From assembly GCF_025024155.1 (NCBI RefSeq), contig NW_026251730.1, positions 248,001 to 312,000 of the forward strand: a DNA stretch of 64,000 bases, given 5' to 3'. The DNA comes from Gamsiella multidivaricata. Lineage: Eukaryota; Mortierellomycota; Mortierellomycetes; Mortierellales; Mortierellaceae. Under the pieces are notes generated by a model. It was not told where the DNA came from. It did not search any database and was given only the letters and a program-made list of their open reading frames with translations. The translations under genes were made by a program, and so were the position numbers. Positions 16,611 to 62,296 of this stretch are shown here, one piece after another; the stretch's first letter is position 1, and every line of letters starts with the position of its first letter.

Positions 16611-16897
16611 TATTAGGGTTTATGCGCCGCTTCAGAAAGATAGTCCTATCATGAGTCCTACTGCTTCGAAGACTTTGGTGCATGCTACCGGCATGTGGGG
16701 TAAAAAACGCTTAAAGGTTTCAGAGAGAACATGGGGATCGACATGGCTGTGTTTTATTATTATAACTCAGCTCCAAAGGGGAGTGCGCCCCGGCGCAGCA
16801 GCAAGTTCCTCGGGAAACACACAAAAAGCACAAGACCGCAGCCTTGAACCGTGGCGCCTCATTCCACCAATTCGGTCATTTCAGTACCCATCACACC

Positions 16898-18319
16898 ATG
16901 ACCCTGATCATGACCATTTTTGACATTCCTGAGATCAATCTCCAGATCGCAAAACATTTGCCGCCAGCAGATCTTGCCAGCGCCTGTCGCGTATGCCGCA
17001 GCTGGTTCGTACCTTTTGCAAGCCAGCTGTGGCGCTCGATCCAGCCAGATCAATGGACACATGGTGCCCTTACGGACGCCCTCCCTCGGTACTCAGTCTT
17101 TGTGCGGCAACTTAGGTGTTCCCTTTTTGTCAACCTGGACACGCTCGGCCCTGAATGCACCAGACTGACGCTGTTCAAGGCTCCAAGACTGAACCACTCA
17201 GCCTTTCCTGTCCTCAAGCGAATCCTAGAATCCAATCCAGATATCGAGGAACTCACGTTGATATCCGACTTTGGAATGAGTGCCATACAACTGACGATGG
17301 AAACCATCAGGATTGTGGCGGGCTTGGCAAAAATGAGAAAGCTGGTGCTGATGGACTTTGTGGCTCCTCGAGGAGCGCTTGAGTACATGATGGAGAAACT
17401 GCCTAGGCTGGAAGCGTTGAGTATCGAAGGATGGGAGGATTTGCCACCATTAAGTCAAGAGGTCGATCCTGCCACTGGGGCTGTGGTATTGAGTGGTGCA
17501 ATGGAGGAGGAGGTCTCGGATATGACAGAGCAATTTGGACGGGACTCTGAGCAACAGCATCAACAGCAAGGACAGCGCCAGCTACGATACTTGTCCATGG
17601 ATGAGTTTCAAGATGGGTACGAGTCTGTGCTCAGGATCGTTCGGCATACACCTCTACTCGAGCATCTCTCACTTACACAAACGCGTGCCAGTGCAATTGA
17701 CCTTACAATATCCCCCCAACTCGTGCAACTCTGTCAGCAGCTGCGATCTCACTGTCCGCGTCTCGACCAGCTATCGCTGAATTATATCTCCGTTGATATC
17801 GGAGGACTTGAGTATCTATTGATGGCGTTTCCCAGGATGAGAAAACTCGCGGTCAACAACGTCTATTTGCCACAACTCGCTCTTCTTTCCATGCTTCTTA
17901 ACCAGGACGCTCTTCAGGAGTCTCTAGAGGACATAAGGATCGCTGATATCGGCGCGATTGTCGACACATTGGCTTCGTCTATGCTATTGGCACTATTAAG
18001 GAAGTTCAAAAAGCTGAAGAGGGTCTCGTTGCCATTCCATATCATTGAAGCAGAGGACATGATTCGATCCGATGGCGAGTTTAAGGAAGAGCTCACATGT
18101 CGTAACCTCGAGGTGCTCGAGGTCTCCATCATTGGGCCCAACAAGAGCTGGGCGCCGCCTGAGGCGCATGCAGAGGGAGACTTGGATACAGATGACGAGG
18201 ACGAAAACCAAGAGGAGCAGCCCAGAGAGTACGAGTTGTACGATGCGGTGATGAAAAGGCTTGACGCTCTGCCGAAACTTGACAAGAACACGATACGTTT
18301 CAGATACAAGACCTTTTGA
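16898..18319 (+). CDS. F-box/LRR protein
   Basis: 473 residues, single exon. N-terminal F-box: FDIPEINLQIAKHLPPADLA then CRVCRSWFVPFASQLW, expected to bind Skp1. The remainder is an irregular leucine-rich-repeat solenoid (IEELTLISDFG, LRKLAVNN-type units, LRYLSMDEF), the probable substrate-binding face, with a short Gln-rich insert near residues 215–225 and an acidic segment before the end (DLDTDDEDENQEEQ). ATG at 16898 precedes the F-box by eight residues; another ATG at 16910 would also serve. It is the intact member of a tandem pair with the relic at 15.87–16.61 kb. Substrate unknown. Confidence 0.82.
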   Translation: MTLIMTIFDIPEINLQIAKHLPPADLASACRVCRSWFVPFASQLWRSIQPDQWTHGALTDALPRYSVFVRQLRCSLFVNLDTLGPECTRLTLFKAPRLNHSAFPVLKRILESNPDIEELTLISDFGMSAIQLTMETIRIVAGLAKMRKLVLMDFVAPRGALEYMMEKLPRLEALSIEGWEDLPPLSQEVDPATGAVVLSGAMEEEVSDMTEQFGRDSEQQHQQQGQRQLRYLSMDEFQDGYESVLRIVRHTPLLEHLSLTQTRASAIDLTISPQLVQLCQQLRSHCPRLDQLSLNYISVDIGGLEYLLMAFPRMRKLAVNNVYLPQLALLSMLLNQDALQESLEDIRIADIGAIVDTLASSMLLALLRKFKKLKRVSLPFHIIEAEDMIRSDGEFKEELTCRNLEVLEVSIIGPNKSWAPPEAHAEGDLDTDDEDENQEEQPREYELYDAVMKRLDALPKLDKNTIRFRYKTF

Positions 18320-38126: not shown

Positions 38127-39773
38127 CTACTCGATATGGACCCATGGTCTTTTTTCTTTCAGCGTAGCCATGAATCGCTCTTGCGCCAGCAGTGTCGTCT
38201 CCGATAAAGCATCTCGGTCAGTGCCCCGTAACGCAACATGGATCAGTCTCGGCCAGTTCTCAATCATCCACTCTGCCTCCGCCGTATCCATGGAGTTCTT
38301 CGAGCGAGCGATGTATGTCAATGACTTCAGCCTCTTCAATCCCGGCAGCAAACCAAGGAACCCATCCGATAAACACAACAGCTCAACATCGCGTCCAAGT
38401 CTCCATTCCTCCAGCCCCGAAAGCCGCGAAATCTGCGGAAAGACATAATGCATGAAACGACTCTGCAATTCCTCGCTTGGACACCTTTGACTGACAACCT
38501 CAGTCCCACGTTTCAGGGTGTAATACAGCGCCAATCGCTTCAGCTCAAGGCAGACCCACCCTTTGTGAAGCGCCAGATCCTCTTCCGGAGTACGACCGTT
38601 CTGTGACTGCAAGTTAACAGTGATGGCCAGGGTATACAGTTTCGGAAGGCTGCTCACAAGACTTACAAAGTCTGTCAGCCGAGTGTTGCGGCAGTGGATG
38701 ATGTACATGAACGTCAATGTAGTGGCTTGATGTTGCGTAAGGGCCATCACAAATGTTTTTAGGGCCGTAGTACCCTTGGCTGTTATGGACCCGAGCCCAC
38801 ATTGTCTCTCCACGTCGCCTGCGTTGCTGTTGAGGGAGTCATCGCCGCTTTCTCGTCCGAGCGAGCGTATAAACCTTGTGTTCAGTTCTTCGGTATCCTT
38901 GCCTAGAACACCGTCTAGTTCAAGGTCCCGCAATTTTGGACACTTGTCGTCTTCAAATACAGATACGATCTGTTCCAGTATTTCTTTGGTCTTCAGATCT
39001 CCCATGATCTTCAGATCACCCAGTCGAAAGACTTGCAAGTGTGGACATTGTGCTAGGAGCAGAGGCAGGATGGCGAGCTCGTGCCCAAAAGACGGTACGT
39101 AAAGCCCCAGCTCTCGCAGTTGGGTCTCTGGCATCTGCTCCATGTCACGGTTGGTGGACTCGTCCTGTTTTCTCAGAGCTTCAGGGAGATACTCGTCTTC
39201 ATATAGTATAGTATGGCAGGATCTGACGCGTAGAATCAATGAATCGAGGTTGCTGCAGGCCTGGAAAAGTTGCAGTATAAAAAGCGGGTAGAGGAATCGA
39301 CGAGAAGTGAGGTCAAGTTCTTCCAACTGTGGAAGTCGTTGTAGCACCTTGAGAAGCTGTTTACGAACGCTTAGATCGATGAGCCAGAGTTCGAGCTTCA
39401 GTGTTCGTAGAACAGTCGGAGTAGTTCCCAAGAACAAGCGTAAACTAGACATCTCCATTAGGATTGAATAACCGCCAGAGACATGCCGCGGAGAGAACAC
39501 CTCCAAGGACCAGAGATTGGAGAGTAGAAAGTCGTCAATGGCCAGGCGAGCGATACTCAGGCGGAGGATTGTCTTGACGTGATCGTGGTGCTTTTGCAGA
39601 GTACATTCATTGAAATCCGAGGACCCAAAGTCGAGGGTACGCCAGAGAGTGGGCATAAACCAGGTGGACCACTTTTTGGAAACGCAGGAGCAATGCGCCA
39701 GGTCGCGATTGGAGAGATACTGAGTGACCTCATCCTTGAGAAGGGGGACGTCGAAGATCGATAGCTTCTCCAT
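38127..39773 (-). CDS. F-box/LRR protein
   Basis: 548 residues, single exon, intact. The start ATG at 39773 gives MEKLSIFDVPLLKDEVTQYL-SNRDLAHCSCVSKKWSTWF and PTLWRTL, a typical F-box; in-frame upstream sequence lacks ATG. The remaining ~480 residues form leucine-rich units (LRTLKLELWLIDLS, LEELDLTSRRF, LRELGLYVPSFG, LRDLELDGVLG, LKRLALYYTL). It is clearly paralogous to the gene at 49446–51056 (shared N-terminus SIFD-PLLKDEVTQYLS, and a shared ending with WMI/LDHWPRLI and KRPW-H/Q-E). Probable SCF substrate receptor, substrate unknown. Flanked on both sides by DIRS fragments carrying the same terminal repeat in inverted orientation. Ends with TAG, showing that TAG is a normal stop in this genome. 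Confidence 0.85.
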   Translation of the reverse strand: MEKLSIFDVPLLKDEVTQYLSNRDLAHCSCVSKKWSTWFMPTLWRTLDFGSSDFNECTLQKHHDHVKTILRLSIARLAIDDFLLSNLWSLEVFSPRHVSGGYSILMEMSSLRLFLGTTPTVLRTLKLELWLIDLSVRKQLLKVLQRLPQLEELDLTSRRFLYPLFILQLFQACSNLDSLILRVRSCHTILYEDEYLPEALRKQDESTNRDMEQMPETQLRELGLYVPSFGHELAILPLLLAQCPHLQVFRLGDLKIMGDLKTKEILEQIVSVFEDDKCPKLRDLELDGVLGKDTEELNTRFIRSLGRESGDDSLNSNAGDVERQCGLGSITAKGTTALKTFVMALTQHQATTLTFMYIIHCRNTRLTDFVSLVSSLPKLYTLAITVNLQSQNGRTPEEDLALHKGWVCLELKRLALYYTLKRGTEVVSQRCPSEELQSRFMHYVFPQISRLSGLEEWRLGRDVELLCLSDGFLGLLPGLKRLKSLTYIARSKNSMDTAEAEWMIENWPRLIHVALRGTDRDALSETTLLAQERFMATLKEKRPWVHIE

Positions 39774-40011
39774 ATTGGTGCGGATAGGAGGTGCTGTAGG
39801 GCGTGCAGCGAGGAAACGGACGAGAGTAAGAGTGAAGATTAGAGAGCGAGGCAGAAAGATAACGGTGAGAGCAAGAGAGAGAACAGAGAGAAAAGAGAGG
39901 AACGAGCACGTCAAATTGGTAGCTTCTCGTCATGCCACCACATGTTTTAAATTCAGGTCCAAGGACCATTTTGTGCTATCTTTTTATATTGGAATAAAAC
40001 GCGAAAAGTCC

Positions 40012-49144: not shown

Positions 49145-49445
49145 GTTCAAGTAAGAGTAGCGTCGATATATCAAATGGATGGAACAGAAGAAAGAGGTCG
49201 AACGGAGGCTCCAGTGACATCACCGCCAACGCTTCAGGGACCATCTTCGCAAAAAGAAAAAGGAAAACGAGACCTTGAGTCCTGGTGCGTGCGAGCTGCG
49301 TTGTGCTTTTTGGTTTGTGTGTATATTTTAGGGCAGGCTATGCCCGCAGCTCCATCTATTGGCCGTTCCTGAACAGCGTCTCGCCAACGTGTGCACCACT
49401 GGGCATGCTCCTCTCCATCACTCTTTCTTCATCATCCTCCTCCGC

Positions 49446-51056
49446 ATGGATCTCTCAATCTTTGACATCCCGCTCTTGAAGGACGAGGTCACCCAGTACT
49501 TGTCCAAACAGGACCTCGCACGGTCTGTCCAGGTCTGCAGGGCCTGGTCGGCCTGGTTCACTCCCACGCTCTGGCGCACCGTAAACTTTAACAACCGAGC
49601 TTCCATCGCTGGCCAGGGCCTCTCCGCGCTAACACGCTACCAAGATCATGTCCAATCAATCGTCGCCTTCCAATACTACCTTGGCTCCGCCTCAATGGCC
49701 CTGCGACCCTTCCGCAACCTACAGTCTCTAGAACACAGGACATTACAGGCCAACGTGCACGAAGACACTATTGTACTACTTGTCATAGGCGGTACCCCTT
49801 CTCTCCAACGCCTCAAGCTCACCCTATCACTCGTCCGAGAAGAGATCCAGACACAATTGATCGATGCCCTTCACTCCCTGCCGAGGTTGAGGAGTCTAGC
49901 CTTGACGTGTTACCAAATTACGCCTGTAGGTGTCATTCAGCGGATCATCGACAGCTGCTCCCATATCGAAACCCTGCATCTCGATCTCGGAAGCTCTGTA
50001 GTCAAAGAGCCATACTCTCAAGGGGATGACCGAAAACAATGTCTGCTTGCTAAGCGTGTCATGGAGCAGATGCTCGATACACGGATCCGCCGTCTTTCGA
50101 TTCGAGTCTCGCTCGCGTCCCAGGAGTCCGCTATCCTTATACCGCTTCTAGAGCGATGCCCGTTGCTGGAGAGACTTGAGGTGGACTGGCTACACCATCC
50201 GGACACTCTTGGGCAGATAATAGATGTGCTCCGGAGAAGGAAATGTCCACTATTGAAGCATGCCCTCTTGGGCGCAGTCTTGAGATTCGATGCAGCAGAG
50301 GGCCAGTTTGCAGAGTTGATCAGTGCCTTGGGGAGTGGAGAGAGAGTCGACGAGACCATTCGCAACAATGGCTGTGACCATGGTTACCGAGGCTATGGTC
50401 TTCACACCTTTACAGTCGAATCCATCCTGCCTTTTGAACAGCAGTCTGCCCTGGCCCTGACGCGACACCACTCCCAGACGATGACAGTCCTCGATCTGAT
50501 GAGCCTGCGCGAGTTGAGAATCCAGCTCTTTGTCGGGATGATGGAGGGTCTCCCGAGACTACAGAGGCTGATGGCCGCAGTCTGGCTTGGACACAAGCAG
50601 GATGGAGGGCCAGGCATGGATACCGTATTCAAAACTCAATGGAGCTGCCTTGGCCTAACAGAGTTGAGACTAGGGCTTCAATTGAGCGAAGAAGTGCGAC
50701 TCGAGCCCGATCACCGACCCGGGAACCTATCCGTGGCGGATCAATATATCGGCTACATGTTTTCACAGATCGGTAGATTGACACAGCTGAAGGAATGCAA
50801 TCTAACGAGTGGGGTCAATCTACTGGACTTGGAGAAGGGATATTTGACCCACTTAATCAAGTTAAAACAGCTTAGAGGCCTGAATTTGAGGCGGTGTACA
50901 AGCTGCAAGCTGAGTGTCGACGTGGCACAGTGGATGCTTGATCACTGGCCGAGGCTTATTTACTTGGTGGTTTTTGCATTTGAATGGCCGCTTGACGCAG
51001 GCAAGGCAGTCCTGCAAGAAAAGAGGCCGTGGATGCAGGTCGAAGGACTGCATTAG
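49446..51056 (+). CDS. F-box/LRR protein
   Basis: 536 residues in one exon. F-box: MDLSIFDIPLLKDEVTQYLS-KQDLARSVQVCRAWSAWFTP and TLWRTVNF. LRR-type solenoid follows (LQRLKLTLSLV, LRSLALTCYQI, LERLEVDWLHH, LTELRLGLQLS, LRGLNLRRC). Ends HWPRLIYLVVF…KRPWMQVEG. Paralogue of the gene at 38127–39773, with the same F-box opening and C-terminal signature and a shared overall plan; opposite strand, 10 kb apart. ATG 49446 is immediately before the conserved SIFD motif; upstream in-frame sequence is not protein-like. Presumed SCF substrate receptor. Confidence 0.85.
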   Translation: MDLSIFDIPLLKDEVTQYLSKQDLARSVQVCRAWSAWFTPTLWRTVNFNNRASIAGQGLSALTRYQDHVQSIVAFQYYLGSASMALRPFRNLQSLEHRTLQANVHEDTIVLLVIGGTPSLQRLKLTLSLVREEIQTQLIDALHSLPRLRSLALTCYQITPVGVIQRIIDSCSHIETLHLDLGSSVVKEPYSQGDDRKQCLLAKRVMEQMLDTRIRRLSIRVSLASQESAILIPLLERCPLLERLEVDWLHHPDTLGQIIDVLRRRKCPLLKHALLGAVLRFDAAEGQFAELISALGSGERVDETIRNNGCDHGYRGYGLHTFTVESILPFEQQSALALTRHHSQTMTVLDLMSLRELRIQLFVGMMEGLPRLQRLMAAVWLGHKQDGGPGMDTVFKTQWSCLGLTELRLGLQLSEEVRLEPDHRPGNLSVADQYIGYMFSQIGRLTQLKECNLTSGVNLLDLEKGYLTHLIKLKQLRGLNLRRCTSCKLSVDVAQWMLDHWPRLIYLVVFAFEWPLDAGKAVLQEKRPWMQVEGLH

Positions 51057-52366: not shown

Positions 52367-54537
52367 TTTTTTTTTTTTTTTTTTTATAACAACTTGTCTC
52401 TCGAGTCAATTGACTCTGCGAATCTATCAGACTAACTAGCAAAGATCTACTATCGCTGTCCTCACCACCAAAGCGGAACCGATCCACAGTCGCCAAAAGA
52501 CAGGTCACATTCCCCGGGCCTGCCCCTAGGGCCTGCGCAACAATTGCCACACCTCATCAGTGTGTTAAAAGCTGAAAACACCTTGTTACAAGAAGGGTAT
52601 CTTCCCCATCCCCTCCATAGTTGTCAACCGCCTCCTCCCTTGCAGGCAATCCAGCAGCGTCCGATCCGCTGCGTCTGGGTCAAGCACGGGGCCAGGGCAG
52701 CTCCCGTTTACATGGTCAGCGAGTAATGCACCACACGGACATTGGTCATCGTCGCTAATATATCCATACCCATCACTCCAGTCCCCTCTCGGTCCCTTGT
52801 ATGGAGTTCGTTTTATCTTGGCTGTGATCCCCCATTCTCGCTCTCGAGCAATGGTGGCCTTGCAGCGTGGTTTCCAGATCAGCTCCGTAGCTTTCTCCTC
52901 AATAAAGCCGACGAACTTGTGAATGACCTGGCGCGCAATCGACGATGGCGAGGTAAATAGACTGCCCCACTCCTTGATAAGGCTTATGGGTGTGATGCCA
53001 CGGCATAAATCGCTGATGCTCCAGGTCAGATCCGGAGAGCGGTCATAATACTCGTCGCCTTTGAGCATTGATCGGGTCCCGGCGATACAGGATAGACCTC
53101 GGATGTGGGTCTCGTTGTTAGGACAAACCCATCGAATGGGTTTCGGTGCAGCAGCGGCGGCTCCAGCGCGGATCCTATCACGCTCTTGCTGCTTCTTGCT
53201 GTTCTTGTTGTATGCGGTCGTTGCAGCTCGTCCCCACTTATCAATCTGCTGTAGCCCTTCGCGCCAGATCTCCTTGTGGACATCTCTAGTAGCACTGCAC
53301 GTCCACAGGTGATGGTTGTCTTCGTCCTGAACATCGCAGACGCAGCAGACACGGTCAGGATATAGACTCGGGTGGCGAGCCTTCATGGTATTCAGGGTAG
53401 GCAGCATACCATGCAGCTTCTTAATATGATGTGTCCTCTGGGACGTATCAGCAGCACTGCTGAAGAACGTGTGCACAGAGCGCTTGTCGTGGACATGGGC
53501 AAGGGTGGACCGCCACTCCACGTCGGCAAGATCTGGTATCGCTCTCTTGACACGACGTTGGGTTGTCCAGGCCTGATGACGCCTGATTGTCGTCTGCTGC
53601 TTGAGTAGCTGCCGCAGATCATGTTCCACAAGATGGTCGTGGCAATGTGCAAAAAAGCGGATGTCTTGCTGCTCGCTTAAATCAACCGACCAGGGCATTG
53701 ACTCGACTCGGACGGCGGCTGTCGCCACAGTGTCTGCAATATTGTTGCCAGTGTTGGTGCTGTGCCCACGGACCCACCTCACCTCCACCGACCCAGACCG
53801 ATCCTGGACAATCTTGTGTAGTGCTGCCCAGTGTCCAGAGTACGTACTACGGAACCGCTTACGAGGTAACGTGTCCGCACGGGAACGCACAAGCTGCTGG
53901 TATTGTTGCACGACCGCTTGGTTGTCGAGCTCCACAATAATGTTTTGGTCTGGTGGTGCAGATAGGATGGCAGCTAGGAGACCCATGAGTTCTGCTTTTG
54001 CTGAAGAAGCGTACCCGTCTGTGCGGCCCTGCACACACCTGACCACGGGCTGCGATCGATCAACGACCCCAAAGGCCATGGCTACGTCTTCTTGACCAGT
54101 GTTAATCAAAGAGCCATCGGAGGAGATGACTCGCGGTGCTGTGTTGTCGACAGGAGATTCTCGCAGCTGTGACACAGCAACTGCCTCAGCGTGTGATAAG
54201 CTGACTGGTCCAATTGTGGTTCTGTCTGGATATAATGTGCCCACCTCCTCAGACAGCTGGTGTACAGGCAGCAATGGATACGTTTGGCGTTGAGGCAGTA
54301 GACGCAACTCTCGTTGTTGTTGACGCTGTAGTCGACGTTCGCTGTTACGCAGGCGTCGGCGCTCCCGTGCCTGCTGGGTACCGTACTGGGCATGTATCGC
54401 TTGCGATGCACGTGCGCGTTGTGAGTTGATGTCTTGCAAAAGTGCTTTTCTGCGCCGAGCAGCAGAGTCTAAGGCAGCCTGTGCGCGTCCTCGTAGGCGA
54501 GCCAGGACGGTGTGATACTGCGCGCTGTTAAGATCCG
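52367..54537 (-). mobile_element. 5'-truncated LINE (non-LTR retrotransposon) insertion
   Basis: Minus-strand insertion of ~2.17 kb. It ends (3' end) in a poly(A) tail, seen as poly-T at about 52367–52385, and is flanked by an 18-bp direct repeat, GCTGGGAGATGCGGGAGC, at 52349–52366 and 54538–54555: a target-site duplication. It carries the C-terminal part of a LINE ORF2: RNase H domain (VISSDGSLIN, SSAKAELMGLLAAILS, IIVELDNQAVV, VRWVRGHSTNTGNNIADTVA with the catalytic D-E-D-(H)-D residues) followed by Cys/His clusters (CCVCDVQDEDNHHLWTC and CPCGALLADHVNGSC). The stop is at 52588–52586. The endonuclease and reverse-transcriptase regions are absent, hence 5' truncation. The frame happens to stay open into the flanking target DNA to an ATG at 54670. 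Confidence 0.9.
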
Positions 54538-54555
54538 CTGGGAGATGCGGGAGCG
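54538..54555 (+). repeat. Target-site duplication of the LINE, right copy
   Basis: Identical 18-bp copy of 52349–52366, marking the 5' truncation point of the LINE at 54537. Confidence 0.9.
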
Positions 54556-54670
54556 GCGAGAAAGAGTGAGAAAGGAATAATGCTGTTTGAGTACGATGGC
54601 AAATTGCACATCCAATGAGAGCCAATTCCACGTTACACGAGAACGAGGGAGCCTTGGACCTTGAAAGCAT

Positions 54671-55657
54671 GAGTCTGCTTAGCTTATACAACAACGATGG
54701 ATGTGTCTAGACTCGATCCAGCCTACTCGAAACCCTTATTCTCATTTTCCGCTCTTTTCCGTTTTCCTTTCTTCCCAGCTACACCCTCCCTCAATCCATC
54801 AGGAACTGTCTTTTCTCTTTCTCATCTTTTCTCGCCTATCTGTCTCTCATACGTCTCTGCTCAATCTCAATAATCACAGTCCGGCGGCGACTTACTGGTA
54901 ACAAAAAACACTGTTTATCTGTGGAGACCCCTTTCCTGCCTGTGCCTGAACCATTAAAATCGATCCAAGAATACTAATGCTAGAACAGTTGGGATAAGGG
55001 TGCGCGACGGTCGAAAGGACAATCATGAGCGTGCAATGGGTAATAACCACTTCTTGCATCATAACAGGTACCTCTCCTAGAAGTGACGAGAGGAAGCGAA
55101 TATCACTCCATTCGACAACCTTATTCGTGCGCGGACATTCTTGAACAAAGGATTGGAGTAGAGAACACTGCACAAGGACGGACCATCTCCTCAGCCAGTA
55201 AAAGGAATCCTGATACAGACTCGTGTTGAGGTGAGGCATTGTTTCTTGTCACTCGAGGGTAGGCAACAGGCGTGTGTAATGGTTATTAATCCGTCATGCT
55301 TCATTAAAGGCATTTGGTACCGTTGCTAGAAGACACAAAGAGATCAAAACTTCTGGACTACCTCGGCATTCAGTCAAAGGACACAAGAGTTGAATAAATA
55401 CTTCCGAGGTGAGGCGTCATCACTTGCGCAGAGTAACTACACATGATAAAGTTCAGGCAGCCGCTATGGATACTAATCGATTTGTTTGAGGATAGACCGG
55501 CCTACTGCCACCACATCTACAATCTCTCAGCTCATTGTGTCCTATTTCGTGCCAGTTGCTGTCGGTGAGTACGCAAATTACTCGCACAAGTATATTAATT
55601 GAAGTCAACGTCATTAACATCGCCACCATCTACTCTGTAATACCATAGAGAAGTAAC
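54671..55657. other. Intergenic; possible leader intron of the NLR gene
   Basis: No clear gene. On the minus strand 54892–55239 reads with LRR-like phrases (VVEWSDIRFLSSLLGEVPVM) that may be another F-box relic, but this is weak. Just before the NLR start, GTGAGT at 55565 and ACCATAG ending at 55648 bound an 84-nt potential 5'-UTR intron. Confidence 0.4.
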
Positions 55658-58600
55658 ATGTTTGACAGTACTTTTTCATCATCAGGAAGCATTCTCTCAC
55701 CACAAAAGGAGCTGGAGATTGCTAATACCCTATTGGAAAATGCGCGCAAAACAAATGATCCAGAAATTTCTCTAAAGTTTTGCAGCGATGCAGAAGCCGC
55801 ATTATCTCGGGCGAAAAGAGCTGCAAAAAAGGCTCTGGCCTCTCCACAGTCGGGCGCAGATCAAACCTTGCGTGATGGAATCGCTAATGCTTATCTCGAG
55901 CATGGAAAACTGCTGGACAGCTTGGGGTATGGCGCAATGGCACAAACCAGCTATAAGAAGGCAGCGAAATGGGGACATGTCCAGGATGTTGACCAACGAT
56001 CACCCGCCTCTTCTCGGCCCGGCAGCAACAAGACCAGCTCCATCCATCGCGCACTAGCTTCCCCTGTCTCTCTTTCAGTCACGCCTCGCTTCTCATCTCC
56101 TTCAGGTTCGAGTGACTCTCATCACAGCGACATTGCACAGATTCCTTCAGGGATTTTTGACCGGGACGTGATTCCGGCTAGGACCAAGTATGCCTTGCCG
56201 AATGCGGGCGCACGTCTCGCTAGTGCCTCTCAGCTCGCGTACTGCCTCAGCTTGTTGCCCTCTGCATCACTGTCTCTGGAACTTCTCGACGAAGCCGAAC
56301 GGGCCTGGTCGCAAGCTAAAGCGAACGATGAAGACGAGCAGGAACGACTACGCACGTTGGCGGCGGACTTGACAAAGGCATTCATCAACGACGTGATCAA
56401 ATCGCCCCCCATTGTCGCTGAAGTGGCCTGCTTGGCGCCTGTACTCGATCAAGACCTATTCAGAAAGCTACTTATGAACTTTATCGACGGCATCAATCAA
56501 GCCACTTTGCTGGAGCTCCATCTACTTGAAGGACTGGCGCAGTTGATGCAGCGCGCTTCACCGGAATACCTTGACGCCGATGATTTGGTCAAGATACTGC
56601 AGGTTCTCAGCACACGCTTGAAGGACACCCACCAGCAATCGACCCAGCATGTTTATAAATTGACACTGGCGGTGTCACACGTTTTGGATGCGATGGCTGA
56701 TTGCCATGTCAAGGACCTGAACCGGGAACAGCTGCATGAGCCCCTCTCTGACTATTTGAACGGACTGAAGGGCAGTCCTGACCCATATCTGGTGTATCAA
56801 GCCGCCTACGCCTTCCAAGCACTGCAGTACGTCCCGGACGATGAGTCACCTTTGCAGGCCACGCTAAGACGCGCACGGACAGTGGTCAAGGGCATTTCAG
56901 GGGTCGTGAGCGCGGTCAAGGGTCTAGATGTGAATGGCTTTATCGATGGACTAGGACATCTTCAAGACGGCTTGGTCGAGGTCTACCAGGTCGCTAAAAT
57001 CGGATACGACGGCGCCAAGGCTCTGGTAGAGAGCGGGCAGGACTTTCTCGACTGTCTCAAAGAAGGCCTCAGCTTTGCTAAGAAGCGCACATGGTATCCA
57101 GCATTACGTGGTATCGATAGTTTGCTTCGAGACGGCCAGCTCGCCAAAGTCAAGAAGCTGATCTGTGAAGCACCTCACCGTCGTGATCTCGCTTTTCAAT
57201 GGGGAGTGTGCCAACGACTTGGGGAAATAGCCGCGAATCCGGACTGGGATCCTACCACCCGCTGGAGCGCTGTAGACTTCCTAGGCGAGCTGTACAAGAA
57301 TGATGCGGAATGGGGCCAGCAAGCCATCGTCAAGCAGCGGATCCTCAATATACTTGAGCAGCTGGCTTCCACGCCAGGGAGCGCATTGCAGTGTATGTGA
57401 GGACGAAGGACAGTTGAGGTGCGATCTCTTGCGATTGACTACCGAGATCTCTACCTCCATATCTAACCCTATCTACCACACTCCAACATAATCAATATGT
57501 TACGTACCATAGCTGCCGAAGCCCTGCTGCAAGAGCTGGGTACGGATGGGGATACCAGGAAGCAAGGCCTTTATCAAGCTTACCGAGAGAAGCCTCAGCG
57601 TCAGTACCCATTGGCTTTCTCTGTACCCATGCTGGCATCTCCATCCCTGCTCGATCGCGTTCAGAATAAACCTGACATTGAAGCTGACTTGCGTCAACTG
57701 AAAGAGCGACGCCTCAAGGAGCGAAGCGACGCTGTCTATATTCCCCCTCAGGCCAAGGCTAGTCTACAGGCTTCCGATGATACGCTGTTTCCATTGATGG
57801 ACAAGGTCAAGGAGTTCCTGGGCAGTAATCAGAAAGTGATGTTGCTGCTAGGTGATTCTGGCGCAGGAAAGTCGACTTTTAACCGGGCGCTCGAGTGCGA
57901 CTTATGGGACGCTTACAAGAAAAAGGAAGGCAGAATTCCTCTTTTCATCAACTTGGCTGCAATCGACAAACCAGAGCAGGATCTGATCGCCAAACAACTA
58001 CGGAAGGCAGAGTTCACCGAGCCCCAGATCAGAGAGTTGAAGGGCTATCGCAGATTCATCTTGATCTGCGACGGGTATGATGAGAGCCAGCAGACCCACA
58101 ACTTGTACATGAGTAACCGACTGAATCAGCCGGGAGAATGGAGAGCTCAGATGGTCATTAGCTGTCGCAGTGAGTACCTTGGCCTCGATTATCGGTATCG
58201 GTTCCAGCCAGCAGATCGCAATCACCAAGCGGAGCCAGCATTGTTTCAAGAAGCGGTCATTGCACCGTTCTCAGTGGGCCAAGTCCAAGATTACATCAAG
58301 AAATATGTGGCTACGAAGGAACCGCTCTGGCAGGCAACGGACTATCTGCAGGCACTTGATAAGATTCCCAATCTGCAGGACCTGGTCAAGAACCCTTTTA
58401 TGTTGACGCTGTCCTTGGAGGTACTGCCGCGCATGGTGGATCCAGGACAAGACATCTCGGCCGTCCGGGTCACTAGAGTGGCATTATATGACCAGTTCGT
58501 AGAGCAGTGGCTGGAGCGCGGCAAGAAGCGGCTTGGGAACAAAGACTTGAGCCCTCAAGCAAGAGCGGGCTTTGAGAGGCTTAACGACGAAGGCTTTACT

Positions 58601-61600
58601 CAAAACGGCATGGAATTTCTCAAGGGTTTGGCGAGTGCAATCTACAAACATCAGGCAGGCAATCCGATGGTGGCCTATTCGCACAAACGAGACAGAGAGA
58701 CATGGAAAGAACAGTTTTTTTCCCGAGAAGATGAGAACCAGCTCCTGCTGGAAGCCTGTCCTCTGACCCGCAACGGCAATCAGTACCGGTTTATCCATAA
58801 ATCACTGCTGGAATACTGCATATCCCGCGCAGTATTTGAACCGCAAGAGGCCAAGAAGGTCCTGGATCGGATACCCACTCCAGCTCGTCGTGGAAGCGCC
58901 AGTTCCATGTTCAGCTTTGAAGATCGAGTGGTAGCTGAGGAAGAATCCATCGGCATTCAGCAGACTCTGGTTGACCATCCATTGACGTGGAGAAGCTTCG
59001 TGAGCGAGCCATCTATTCTGCAATTTCTAGCGGAGCGTGTCCATCAGGAACCTGTCTTCAAGCAACAGCTGCTCGCGATGATTGAATACTCGAAAACGGA
59101 TAAAGAGGCACGCAAGGCAGCGGCGAATGCGGTCACGATATTGGTCAGGGCTGGGATGCGGTTTAATGGAGCGGATCTGAAGGGCATCCAGATTCCAGGG
59201 GCGGATCTGAGCTATGGCGAATTCGATTCTGCTCAACTACAAGGGGCGGACTTGAGAAAGGCCAATCTTCGCGGTATTTGGCTGCGTCAGGCTAATTTGA
59301 GCAACGCGCAAATGGCAGGCGTGCAGTTTGGCGAATGGCCGTATCTTAAAGAAAATGACGGAGTACAATCCTGCGCATATTCGCCGGATGGGAATACCTG
59401 TGCCGTGGGCGTCGACGATGGCACGATCAGCGTGTATGACACCATGACTTGGACAAAAACCCACACCTTGCGTGGCCATACTGGCATAGTCAGGAGCGCG
59501 GTATACTCACCCGGAGGCCAACAGATTGCCTCCTGCAGTACCGACAAGACGGTGCGACTGTGGGACGCGCAAACCGGTGCACCCGGCCCCATCTTAAGCG
59601 GCCATACCGAACACATATGGGGCGTGGCGTATTCGCCCAGTGGCCAACAGATTGCCTCCTGCGGTGACGACAACACGGTACGGCTGTGGGACGCGCAAAC
59701 CGGCGCACCCGGTCTCATCCTAATCGGCCATACCGAACCCGTATTGGGCGTGGTATATTCACCCAGCGGCCAGCAGATTTCTTCCTGCAGCTGGGACAAG
59801 ACAGTGCGGATGTGGGACGCTCAAACCGGCGCACTCGATCTCATCCTAACCGGCCATACCGAGTACGTATTAGATGTGGCGTATTCGCCCAACGGCAAGC
59901 AGGTTGTCTCCTGCAGTGTCGACGACACGGTGCGGCTGTGGGACGCGCAAACCGGCGCACCCGGTCTCATCCTAACCGGCCATACTGACGCCGTAGGTGG
60001 CGTGGCGTATTCGCCCAGCGGTCAACAGATTGCCTCCTGCAGTTACGACAATACAGTACGGCTGTGGGACGCTCAAACCGGCGCACCTGGCCCCATCCTA
60101 AGCGGCCATATCAAATCCGTATGGGGCGTGAAATATTCGCCCAGCGGCCAGCAGATTGCTTCCTGCAGTGACGACAAGACGGTGCGGCTGTGGGACGCGC
60201 AAACCGGCGCACCCGGCTCCATCTTAAGCGGTCATACCAAATCCGTATGGGGCGTGGCGTATTCGCCCAGCGGCCAGCGGTTTGCTTCCTGCAGTGCCGA
60301 CAAGACGGTGCGACTGTGGGACGCGCAAACCGGCGCACCCGATCTCATCCTGACCAGCCATACTGGCGATGTTAACAGCGTGGCGTATTCGCCCAACGGC
60401 CAGCAGATTGCCTCCTGCAGTGTCGACGAGACGGCGCGGCTGTGGGACGCTCAAACTGGCGCACCTGGTTCCATCCTAAGCGGCCATACCGGTTGGGTAT
60501 GGAGCGTGGCATATTCGCCCAACGGCCAACAGATTGCCTCCTGCAGTGTCGATGTCACGGTGCGGCTGTGGGACGCGCAAACCGGCGCACCAGGTCTCAT
60601 CCTAACCGGCCATATCGAATCTGTATTGGGCGTGGCATATTCGCCCAACGGCCAACAGATTGCCTCCTGCAGTGTCGATGGCACGGTGCGGCTGTGGGAC
60701 GCTCAAACCGGCGCATCCGGTCCAATCCTAAGCGGCCATACCGAATCCGTATGGGGCGTGGCGTATTCGCCCAGCGGCCAGCAGATTGCCTCCTGCAGTA
60801 CCGACAACACGGTGCGACTGTGGGACGCTCAAACCGGCGCACCCGGTCTCATCCTAACCGGCCATATCGAATCTGTATTGGGCGTGGCGTATTCACCCAA
60901 CGGCCAGCAGATTGCCTCCTGCAGTGTCGATGGCACGGTGCGGCTGTGGGATGCGCAAACCGGCGCACCCGGTCTCATCCTAACCGGCCATACCGGATCC
61001 ATATTAGGCGTGGTATACTCACCCAGCGGCCAGCAGGTTGCTTCCTGCAGCTACGACAATACAGTGCGGCTGTGGGATGCACAAACCGGCGCACCCGGCC
61101 CCATCCTAAGTGGCCATACTGACTTCGTCCCCAGCGTGGCGTATTCGCCCAGCGGCCGGCAGATTGTCTCCTGCAGTGGCGACAATACGGTGCGGCTGTG
61201 GGACGCACAAACCGGCGCACCCGGTTCCATCCTAAGCGGTCATACCGAATCCGTATGGGGCGTGGCGTATTCGCCCAACGGCCAGCAGATTTCTTCCTGC
61301 AGCTGGGACAAGACGGTACGGCTGTGGGACGCGCAAACCGGCGCACCCGGTCCCATCCTAAGCGGTCATACTGCCTCCGTCACTAGCGTGGCGTATTCGC
61401 CCAGCGGCCAGCAGATTGCCTCCTGCAGTACCGACAACACGGTGCGGCTGTGGGACGCTCAAACCGGCGCACCCGGTCCCATCCTATGCGGCCATACCAA
61501 CGGTGTCAATAGCGTGGCGTATTCGCCCAGCGGTCAGCAAATTGCCTCCTGCAGTACCGACAAGACGGTCCGGCTGTGGGACGCGCAAACCGGCGCACCC

Positions 61601-62296
61601 AGCCTCATCCTAAGCGACCATACCGACGGTGTCAATAGCGTGGCGTATTCGCCCAGCGGCCAGCAGATTGCCTCCTGCAGTGGCGACAATACAGTGCGGC
61701 TGTGGGACGCTCAAACCGGCGTACCCGGTCCCATCCTAAGTGGCCATACTGACTCCGTCACTAGCGTGGCCTATTCGCCCAGTGGCCAGCAGATTGCCTC
61801 CTGCAGTGATGACAAGACGGTGTGGCTGTGGGATGTGAATTCGGGTCACTGTTTGGCTCTTGTCGAAGGTTTCCATGGAGTAGTCACATGTATCGCCTGG
61901 AGCACGACCCCCAATGGCTCCTATTTCGTAACCGGCTGTGAAGATATGTCTGTTCGCTTGTGGCGGGTCACAGAAGAGGAAGGTCACCTTCAGGTGCGTC
62001 TACAGTGGAGTTCGATGCAAGGCGCACTTGTTGTGTCGAATGCCTCTATCCAAAACGCACAGGGCTTGAACAGGATAAATATGCGGCTATTAGAGCAGCG
62101 CGGCGCTGTGGGCAAGCCGATTCCACCTTCGAGTTTCCGCGAGGCCAGCAGGAAGCTTATCAGCATGGCGTCCGTGGCATCTAAACTCAAGTTGCCGTCA
62201 AGCCGCGACACAGTGGATACCTTCCTCGTTACAGATTCTCCCGCTGTACAGCCAGCACAGCCGGTCGACTCTGCGGCTGTCTCTTCGCTTGCTTGA
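55658..62296 (+). CDS. NACHT–pentapeptide–WD40 NLR-like (STAND) receptor, 2172 residues
   Basis: Exons 55658..57392 and 57513..62296; donor GTATGT, acceptor ACCATAG, in-phase joint giving …SALQ-SAEALLQELGTDGD. Residues ~15–110 are TPR-like helices (LEIANTLLENARK, then AYLEHGKLLDSLGYGAMAQT), followed by a Ser-rich linker and a helical domain to ~580 of no known family (VVKGISGVVSAVKGL region at ~400–470). NACHT: Walker A GDSGAGKST at 692–700, Walker B FILICDGYDE at 760–769, ISCRSEYL near 795. A winged-helix/arm region follows (FIHKSLLEYCISRAVFEPQE). Pentapeptide-like A(D/N)L repeats lie at ~1125–1185. From ~1195, 21 WD40 repeats: number 1 divergent, 2–19 exact 42-residue near-identical units (first at nt 59486, period 126 bp), 20–21 divergent. 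A ~100-residue Ser-rich tail ends the protein. STAND proteins are ligand-gated oligomerising switches; in fungi this architecture mediates nonself recognition. Ligand and output are unknown. Confidence 0.9.
59486..61879 (+). repeat. 126-bp tandem repeats encoding 42-residue WD40 units (18 uniform plus one hybrid)
   Basis: Units start every 126 bp from 59486 (59612, 59738 … 61754). Consensus protein unit runs x-V-x-x-VAYSPSGQQIASCSxDxTVRL, then WDAQTGAPGxILSGHTx. DNA similarity between units is very high, while differences concentrate at unit positions 1, 3, 4, 19 and 21, with minor S/N at 10, P/L/S at 35 and S/T at 38. The last unit (61754) switches half-way into a diverged sequence (WLWDVNSGHCLALVEG). 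Confidence 0.95.

Follow-up and report, generated by a model that had tools for sequence, protein, structure and literature searches.

The 64,000-nucleotide stretch of Gamsiella multidivaricata DNA analysed here (RefSeq assembly GCF_025024155.1, contig NW_026251730.1, positions 248,001 to 312,000 of the forward strand; hereafter the window) contains a large receptor-like gene with two exons on its plus strand. The spliced product has 2172 residues and a single terminal stop. From the N-terminus it consists of TPR-like helices, an ARM_5 solenoid (PF23948), a NACHT domain, pentapeptide repeats, and an array of 21 WD40 units, whose evolution is the main subject of this analysis. The features of the gene, in window coordinates, are:

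55658..57392, plus strand: exon 1, encoding residues 1-578 plus the first base of codon 579 (N-terminal helical domain)
56318..57364, plus strand: ARM_5 alpha-solenoid PF23948, residues 221-569 (Pfam 255.2 bits, cut-off 27, E 1.4e-75)
57393..57512, plus strand: intron, 120 nt, phase 1, GTATGT...TAG, from comparison with paralogous loci
57513..62296, plus strand: exon 2, remainder of the protein up to residue 2172, and stop
57851..57877, plus strand: Walker A motif GDSGAGKST of the NACHT domain, residues 692-700, read from the sequence (Pfam NACHT 33.2 bits, cut-off 26.7)
58064..58084, plus strand: Walker B motif ICDGYDE, residues 763-769, fitting the NACHT type hhhhD[GAS]hDE
58790..58831, plus strand: HETHS (winged-helix/ARC2) motif FIHKSLLEYCISRA, compared with the NAIP-like consensus
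59168..59320, plus strand: pentapeptide repeats, residues 1131-1181 (PF00805, 42.1 bits, cut-off 20.2)
59327..59452, plus strand: divergent first WD40 unit, FGEWPYL...VYDTMTW, read from the sequence
59453..61846, plus strand: 19 similar 42-residue WD40 units, the last of which, ending WLWDVNSG, is more divergent, read from the sequence
61847..61981, plus strand: divergent last WD40 unit, read from the sequence
61982..62293, plus strand: C-terminal tail, the first part of which (...VRLQWSS...RLLEQRGAVG...) recurs in homologues and paralogues

The exons are contained in two open reading frames (ORFs) of 580 residues (55658-57400, exon 1) and 1599 residues (57497-62296, exon 2). The intron between them was compared across 30 ARM_5 loci of the same genome, the window and 29 others. 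The GTATGT donor is found at the identical phase-1 codon in 19 of the 30 loci (the window and 18 others), and nine loci are intronless at the junction, all of them continuing in frame. The exceptions are L028, which has a GTATGA-type intron, and L015 on contig C104 with an altered donor. Because the intron site is shared by paralogues and the intronless loci read through in frame, the comparison supports that both exons form one gene, and the two-exon model of the initial annotation, made from the letters of the window, was right in its coordinates, frames and intron. In L015, the change of the GTATGT donor may impair splicing.

The same annotation had proposed a NACHT domain, a pentapeptide module between NACHT and WD40, and 21 WD40 repeats, and the profile searches agree with all three (33.2 bits, 42.1 bits, and 21 matching Pfam stretches, respectively). 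The NACHT domain combines GDSGAGKST and FILICDGYDE with a profile match above the cut-off; the consensus for NACHT-type Walker B motifs is taken from PMC12258605. The N-terminus had been described as undescribed, which did not hold given the ARM_5 match, and a helical solenoid of NOD-like receptors (NLRs) has already been published (PMC9815663). Residues 1-578 were modelled by AlphaFold2 as helical with a mean predicted local distance difference test score (pLDDT) of 75.3. A Pfam scan of residues 1-221 gave no family at E up to 1. ARM_5 is the sole match in the Pfam scans of exon 1, which reported no HET, HeLo or Goodbye domains. Goodbye and HeLo profiles were also not listed at E up to 10 in 14 ARM_5 members, in a search whose filters discard most weak matches. 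Foldseek against the PDB gave nothing at E 0.001 or less, the rows being mostly designed or ARM/HEAT repeat proteins. The PDB sequence search with ARM_5 yielded short matches to designed SAKe proteins, the best with E 4.5e-5 across roughly 33 positions, besides weak ones, and that with NACHT a single match at E 0.52. NCBIfam showed no match above the cut-off, and the best PADLOC match had an E of 0.039.

Two candidates for a further effector function were not borne out. The longest homologues might have carried an additional effector domain ahead of ARM_5, but six of the twelve long homologues match residues 1-700 twice (P0002-P0005, P0013, and P0015, 2574-3119 residues) and probably represent tandem gene models joined into one. 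In the remaining six there is one match, or one and a partial second. A hidden membrane-active helix within residues 406-460 was also considered but is unsupported, this stretch being absent from the most hydrophobic 19-residue windows. The stretch is nearly ungapped, about as conserved as the remaining solenoid, and of low AlphaFold2 confidence, and it is a candidate contact surface.

The gene belongs to a large family. In the genome (37.48 Mb, 180 contigs) 53 ARM_5 matches were found, which merge to 46 loci on 21 contigs if gaps under 1,500 bases on the same strand are closed, with up to nine loci on a single contig. The same genome has 42 NACHT matches. A database search returned 1121 homologues among 7984 scored candidates. 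Of the 120 homologues listed, 110 carry organism names and all of these belong to Mortierella-type genera, which we take to be Mortierellomycota. ARM_5, NACHT, pentapeptide repeats and WD40 units stand in this order in one protein with Mortierella-type homologues, which places the window gene in the family. In the tree of ARM_5 domains, which takes in 32 of the 46 loci, the window falls in a group with three other loci of the same genome, its paralogues on contigs C96 (one) and C159 (two), and the next nearest rows by distance are five Dissophora globulifera proteins. Nine of the 46 loci have an in-frame stop inside the ARM_5 match (in a six-frame search, in which an unrecognised intron may also yield a stop). 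Because of these stops and of own-genome clades of up to six members, the data suggest that the family evolves by birth and death. A divergent relative, L065 (contig C145, about 150700-152500; 33% identity over residues 140-1005), has a stop in the ARM_5 region, and its WD40 part looks clearly less uniform. A search of viral contigs led to nothing further.

The count of 21 WD40 units, already given in the initial annotation, is correct: besides the 21 Pfam stretches, there are 21 d-strand anchors spaced 42 residues apart, the last spacing being 44. The array is built from one divergent first, 19 similar, and one divergent last unit. Units were counted in 11 of the 46 loci of the genome, eight of which have long arrays. 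The window and the C96 paralogue have 21 units each, the two C159 paralogues 16 each, and the others 15 and 14 (both on C110), 15 (C132), and 16 (L061), with a weak last unit in C132 and L061. The three remaining loci, L062, L063 and L064 (contigs C144, C93, and C163), contain in-frame stops and show only three to four WD40 unit matches in one frame. It may be that the loss of units and the loss of function go together in these loci.

It had also been proposed that 21 is significant as three times seven. However, none of the 95 countable listed homologues has 21 units, a number seen in the window and the C96 paralogue alone. Most of the 95 have 14 (39 homologues), 15 (27) or 16 (25) units, and 13 (two), 11 (one) and 17 (one) are rare; of the 120 listed homologues, 23 with arrays that were cut off and had no usable span, and two without a first-unit match, were dropped before counting. 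The commonest count, 14, matches two seven-bladed propellers, as modelled for HET-E (PMC12222747), although 15 and 16 are also common. The mean DNA identity between units is 0.828 at an offset of one, 0.808 at seven, and 0.771 at 14. It tends downward with distance and has no peak at seven or 14; therefore no duplication of a seven-unit block is visible. Thus, the 21 units would be compatible with three propellers, but multiples of seven are unsupported as a requirement, and three times seven was rejected as a rule given the homologue counts, the paralogues of the same clade with 16 units, and the missing seven-unit periodicity.

The comparison with the C96 paralogue shows how differently the array and its surroundings behave. 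Upstream of the array, the identity between the two genes is 93.5% (3,677 alignment columns, intron included). Downstream it is 94.1% over 204 bp, which begin within the last unit and extend into the tail as far as the retrieved paralogue sequence goes. Similarly, units 1-3 and 19 have their best partner in the same-numbered unit of the C96 paralogue (0.89-0.93). Within units 4-18, DNA identity is 0.831 between same-numbered and 0.835 between differently numbered units, and the observed diagonal is reached by 6716 of 10000 permutations, so that no positional homology is left in the interior of the two arrays. For example, a run of four units is shifted by eight, window units 15-18 corresponding to units 7-10 of the paralogue. 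Such a pattern has been termed concerted evolution in Podospora (PMC1805685, PMC4986451), and exchange of units between paralogues would be its cause here. Short-read assemblies are known to fail at tandem units of high similarity (PMC12222747), and the array could in principle have been collapsed or expanded by the assembler. This is very unlikely because the units are regularly spaced, the frame is open throughout, the longest exact repeat within the array is only 61 bp, and the nearest paralogue likewise has 21 units with a different interior.

The differences between the units are concentrated at a few residues. Pooling the window and the C96 paralogue, the five most variable of the 42 unit positions are 30, 11, 32, 12, and 14. 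In Podospora, codons 7, 9, 25, and 27, which flank the conserved codons 8 and 26, are under strong positive selection (Paoletti et al., PMC1805685). With an offset of five, obtained in this analysis by aligning the conserved residues, these sites map to positions 12, 14, 30, and 32 of the window unit, on either side of V13 and D31. The window array thus shows the hypervariability at four positions flanking two conserved residues that characterises the HNWD genes. If variability were placed at random, four named positions would all rank among the five most variable of 42 with a probability of 4.5e-5, but WD40 loops are no random draw. Averaged across 98 of the 120 listed homologues, those with eight or more units, the profile has the same five positions at the top (12, 30, 14, 11, and 32).

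To compare replacement and synonymous change, the pairwise proportion of replacement differences (pN) at positions 12, 14, 30, and 32 was divided by the proportion of synonymous differences (pS) of the whole array. Seven of the eight long arrays were measured, L061 being left out. The units used were 17 of 19 in each of the window and C96, and those in exact register in the other arrays (C110a 10 of 11, C110b 8 of 9, C132 7 of 9, C159m 10 of 12, and C159p 9 of 12). The ratio is 2.09 in the window (bootstrap 1.75-2.40), 2.24 in C96 (1.65-2.74), 1.75 in C110a, 1.94 in C110b, 1.25 in C132, and 1.65 in both C159m and C159p. It is above one in all seven arrays, with a bootstrap lower bound above one in six of them, and is 0.17-0.42 at the remaining unit positions. 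Random quartets of sites reach the observed ratio in 0 and 1 of 20000 draws in the two 21-unit arrays and in 0 to 8 of 20000 in the five others. These ratios suggest that selection favours changes at positions 12, 14, 30, and 32 (and 11) of each unit. It could also be imagined that the homogeneity of the arrays is mutational housekeeping by unequal crossing-over and gene conversion, and that the variable positions are just unconstrained loops. The fact that the same positions are on average the most variable in the less homogeneous arrays of the homologues would fit this explanation. However, because replacement change exceeds the synonymous level at the four sites, and does so in all seven measured arrays, relaxed constraint alone is argued against, and random quartets rarely reach the observed ratio. 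We therefore consider housekeeping unlikely.

Similar receptors have been described before. NACHT-PPR-WD40 NOD-like receptors were published for Mortierellomycota by Ciach et al. 2024 (PMC11291939), and novelty of the receptor type is therefore unsupported. These receptors come from the same phylum and have the same domain order, if PPR is taken to mean pentapeptide repeats. An ARM_5 N-terminus, unit homogeneity, hypervariable sites, and shuffling are unmentioned in the available part of that paper. The NLR_Helical domain is common to Pezizomycotina, Mortierellomycetes, and the endosymbiont Mycoavidus (PMC9815663). The N-terminus of the window protein resembles it in its length of over 500 residues, its multi-helix alpha-solenoid, and its occurrence in Mortierellomycetes. 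From the published description, we infer that PF23948 corresponds to NLR_Helical. A 2025 survey found 26 N-NACHT receptors in Entomortierella parvispora (PMC12258605). The N-NACHT proteins are described from E. parvispora, likewise of the Mortierellales, and from Sordariales, and the HETHS pattern FIH[KR]SLLEY seen here resembles the N-NACHT (NAIP-like) consensus FhHxxhQE[YF]hxA. The window-type motif differs from this consensus by L instead of Q at position 7, and fungal N-NACHT proteins are reported there with HEAT C-termini, whereas the window protein has WD40 units. The commonest HETHS form, FIHRSLLEYGLA, accounts for 19 of 111 matches in 122 sequences; in it, Q is replaced by L, and G occupies a hydrophobic position. 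The form in the window, FIHKSLLEYCIS, additionally has S for the final A.

The closest parallel to the WD40 array is found in HET-D, HET-E, and HET-R (HNWD/NWD) of Podospora anserina, which have in common with the window protein the NACHT domain, similar WD40 units, four equivalent hypervariable positions, and shuffling. In these proteins conserved units are joined by divergent ones, 11 + 3 giving two seven-bladed propellers (PMC12222747) compared to 19 + 2 in the window. The mean internal identity of the window array is 0.76 (42 columns), which is lower than the published HNWD values of about 85% at the amino-acid level (PMC4986451) and over 80% (PMC12222747). The units have been sorted by positions 10, 11, 12, 14, 30, 32, and 39 in the numbering of PMC12222747; if that numbering agrees with ours, 10 and 39 are outside the most variable window positions. 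The window protein differs from HET-D/E/R in having an ARM solenoid and not a HET domain, an extra pentapeptide module, and 21 units, and in coming from a distant phylum. Given the resemblance in sensor architecture and the shared hypervariable positions, it might be supposed that the genes control heterokaryon incompatibility (allorecognition) like het-D and het-E. This seems rather improbable, since the domains of the HET, HeLo and Goodbye type are unreported in exon 1 and the 46 loci outnumber the ten NWD genes of Podospora (PMC1805685). Somewhat better placed, though still tentative, is the idea that the receptor watches endohyphal bacteria, viruses, or bacterial effectors instead of nonself of its own species, and that the family is shared horizontally with Mycoavidus and serves the symbiosis. 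Mycoavidus homologues with about 45-50% identity are best reciprocal matches, a transfer to the fungus has been stated (PMC11291939), and the helical domain is reported in Mycoavidus as well (PMC9815663). However, two GTDB scans for bacterial ARM-NACHT relatives gave 41 and 72 pattern matches of which none was confirmed, although short exact patterns can miss homologues of 45% identity, and plasmids have no ARM_5 match and only two NACHT matches with 22.6% and 26.2% identity.

Elsewhere in the window, an ORF of 702 residues lies on the minus strand at 52586-54694, roughly 1 kb before the receptor gene. Its RNase H domain scores 39 bits (cut-off 25.8), and the ORF is probably part of a retroelement. 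In addition, three long ORFs (16844-18319, 38127-39914, and 49359-51056) have the look of F-box/leucine-rich-repeat proteins, judged by eye from the translations.

In receptors of the STAND (signal transduction ATPases with numerous domains) class the WD40 part senses, the NACHT domain is an ADP/ATP switch that oligomerises, and the N-terminal part signals. Based on the homologues, the profiles, the variable sites, and the shuffling, the window gene probably encodes a cytosolic STAND/NLR receptor of an expanded family of Mortierella-type fungi, whose sensor has been diversified by unit shuffling together with diversifying selection. The initial proposal of a STAND/NLR-type receptor with a NACHT switch, a pentapeptide linker, and a WD40 sensor resembling that of the HET-D/E/R family is thus retained. 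Several points weigh against this interpretation. The shuffling comparison rests on two close paralogues, and when all 19 units are taken together, same-numbered units are more alike than expected by chance (0.846 versus 0.820; 55 of 10000 permutations). This excess appears because the array ends keep their order, but the cut to units 4-18 was picked after the data had been seen. Pairwise pN/pS is a simple measure and the units recombine, so that they are not independent, and the bootstrap interval of C132 (0.91-1.53) includes one. Taken one by one, just 27% of the 98 homologues have all four sites within the top five, and 67% have them within the top eight; the homologue arrays are mostly not highly homogeneous (median internal identity 0.49, at least 0.70 in 13 of 98). 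WD40 blade loops are generally tolerant of change, and the agreement with Podospora may partly be an effect of the fold. Finally, the AlphaFold2 model of the WD40 array has a mean pLDDT of 33.5 and no usable fold, and the ARM solenoid contains neither a catalytic domain nor a known death domain.

If the STAND/NLR interpretation is right, the WD40 array would be the sensor and the ligand would touch the upper faces of the propellers. Binding would cause the NACHT domain to exchange its nucleotide and to oligomerise, and the N-terminal TPR-like/ARM solenoids gathered in this way would form a platform for a downstream partner. The most likely output is that a partner is recruited, because the helical solenoid is without a known enzymatic or pore-forming domain. 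The platform would probably trigger cell death or another defence response to nonself. The sensor would be diversified by swapping whole 42-residue units within and between paralogues, and selection would act on the surface positions 12, 14, 30, and 32 (and 11), as in HET-D and HET-E of Podospora.

Unit homogeneity, hypervariable sites, selection or shuffling in Mortierella NLRs were not found in a literature search, subscription papers being mostly outside its range. Judged by the sequence evidence, the HET-type sensor regime appears to extend to Mortierella-type fungi. A wider reading, to which we give less than even weight, is that Mortierella-type fungi have a receptor-diversification system of their own, in which dozens of ARM-NACHT-pentapeptide genes share a genome-wide pool of WD40 units, which are exchanged under diversifying selection at a Podospora-like propeller surface, and that the 21-unit genes are the three-propeller form. 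If such a pool exists, one sensor strategy would have arisen or persisted in two lineages of fungi whose receptors and effector chassis differ. Work on fungal NLRs has mostly been based on Ascomycota. A HET-type regime on an ARM-NACHT chassis would, if true, point to a general route to new recognition specificities without adaptive immunity, and it would offer a testable system in fungi reported to carry endobacteria.

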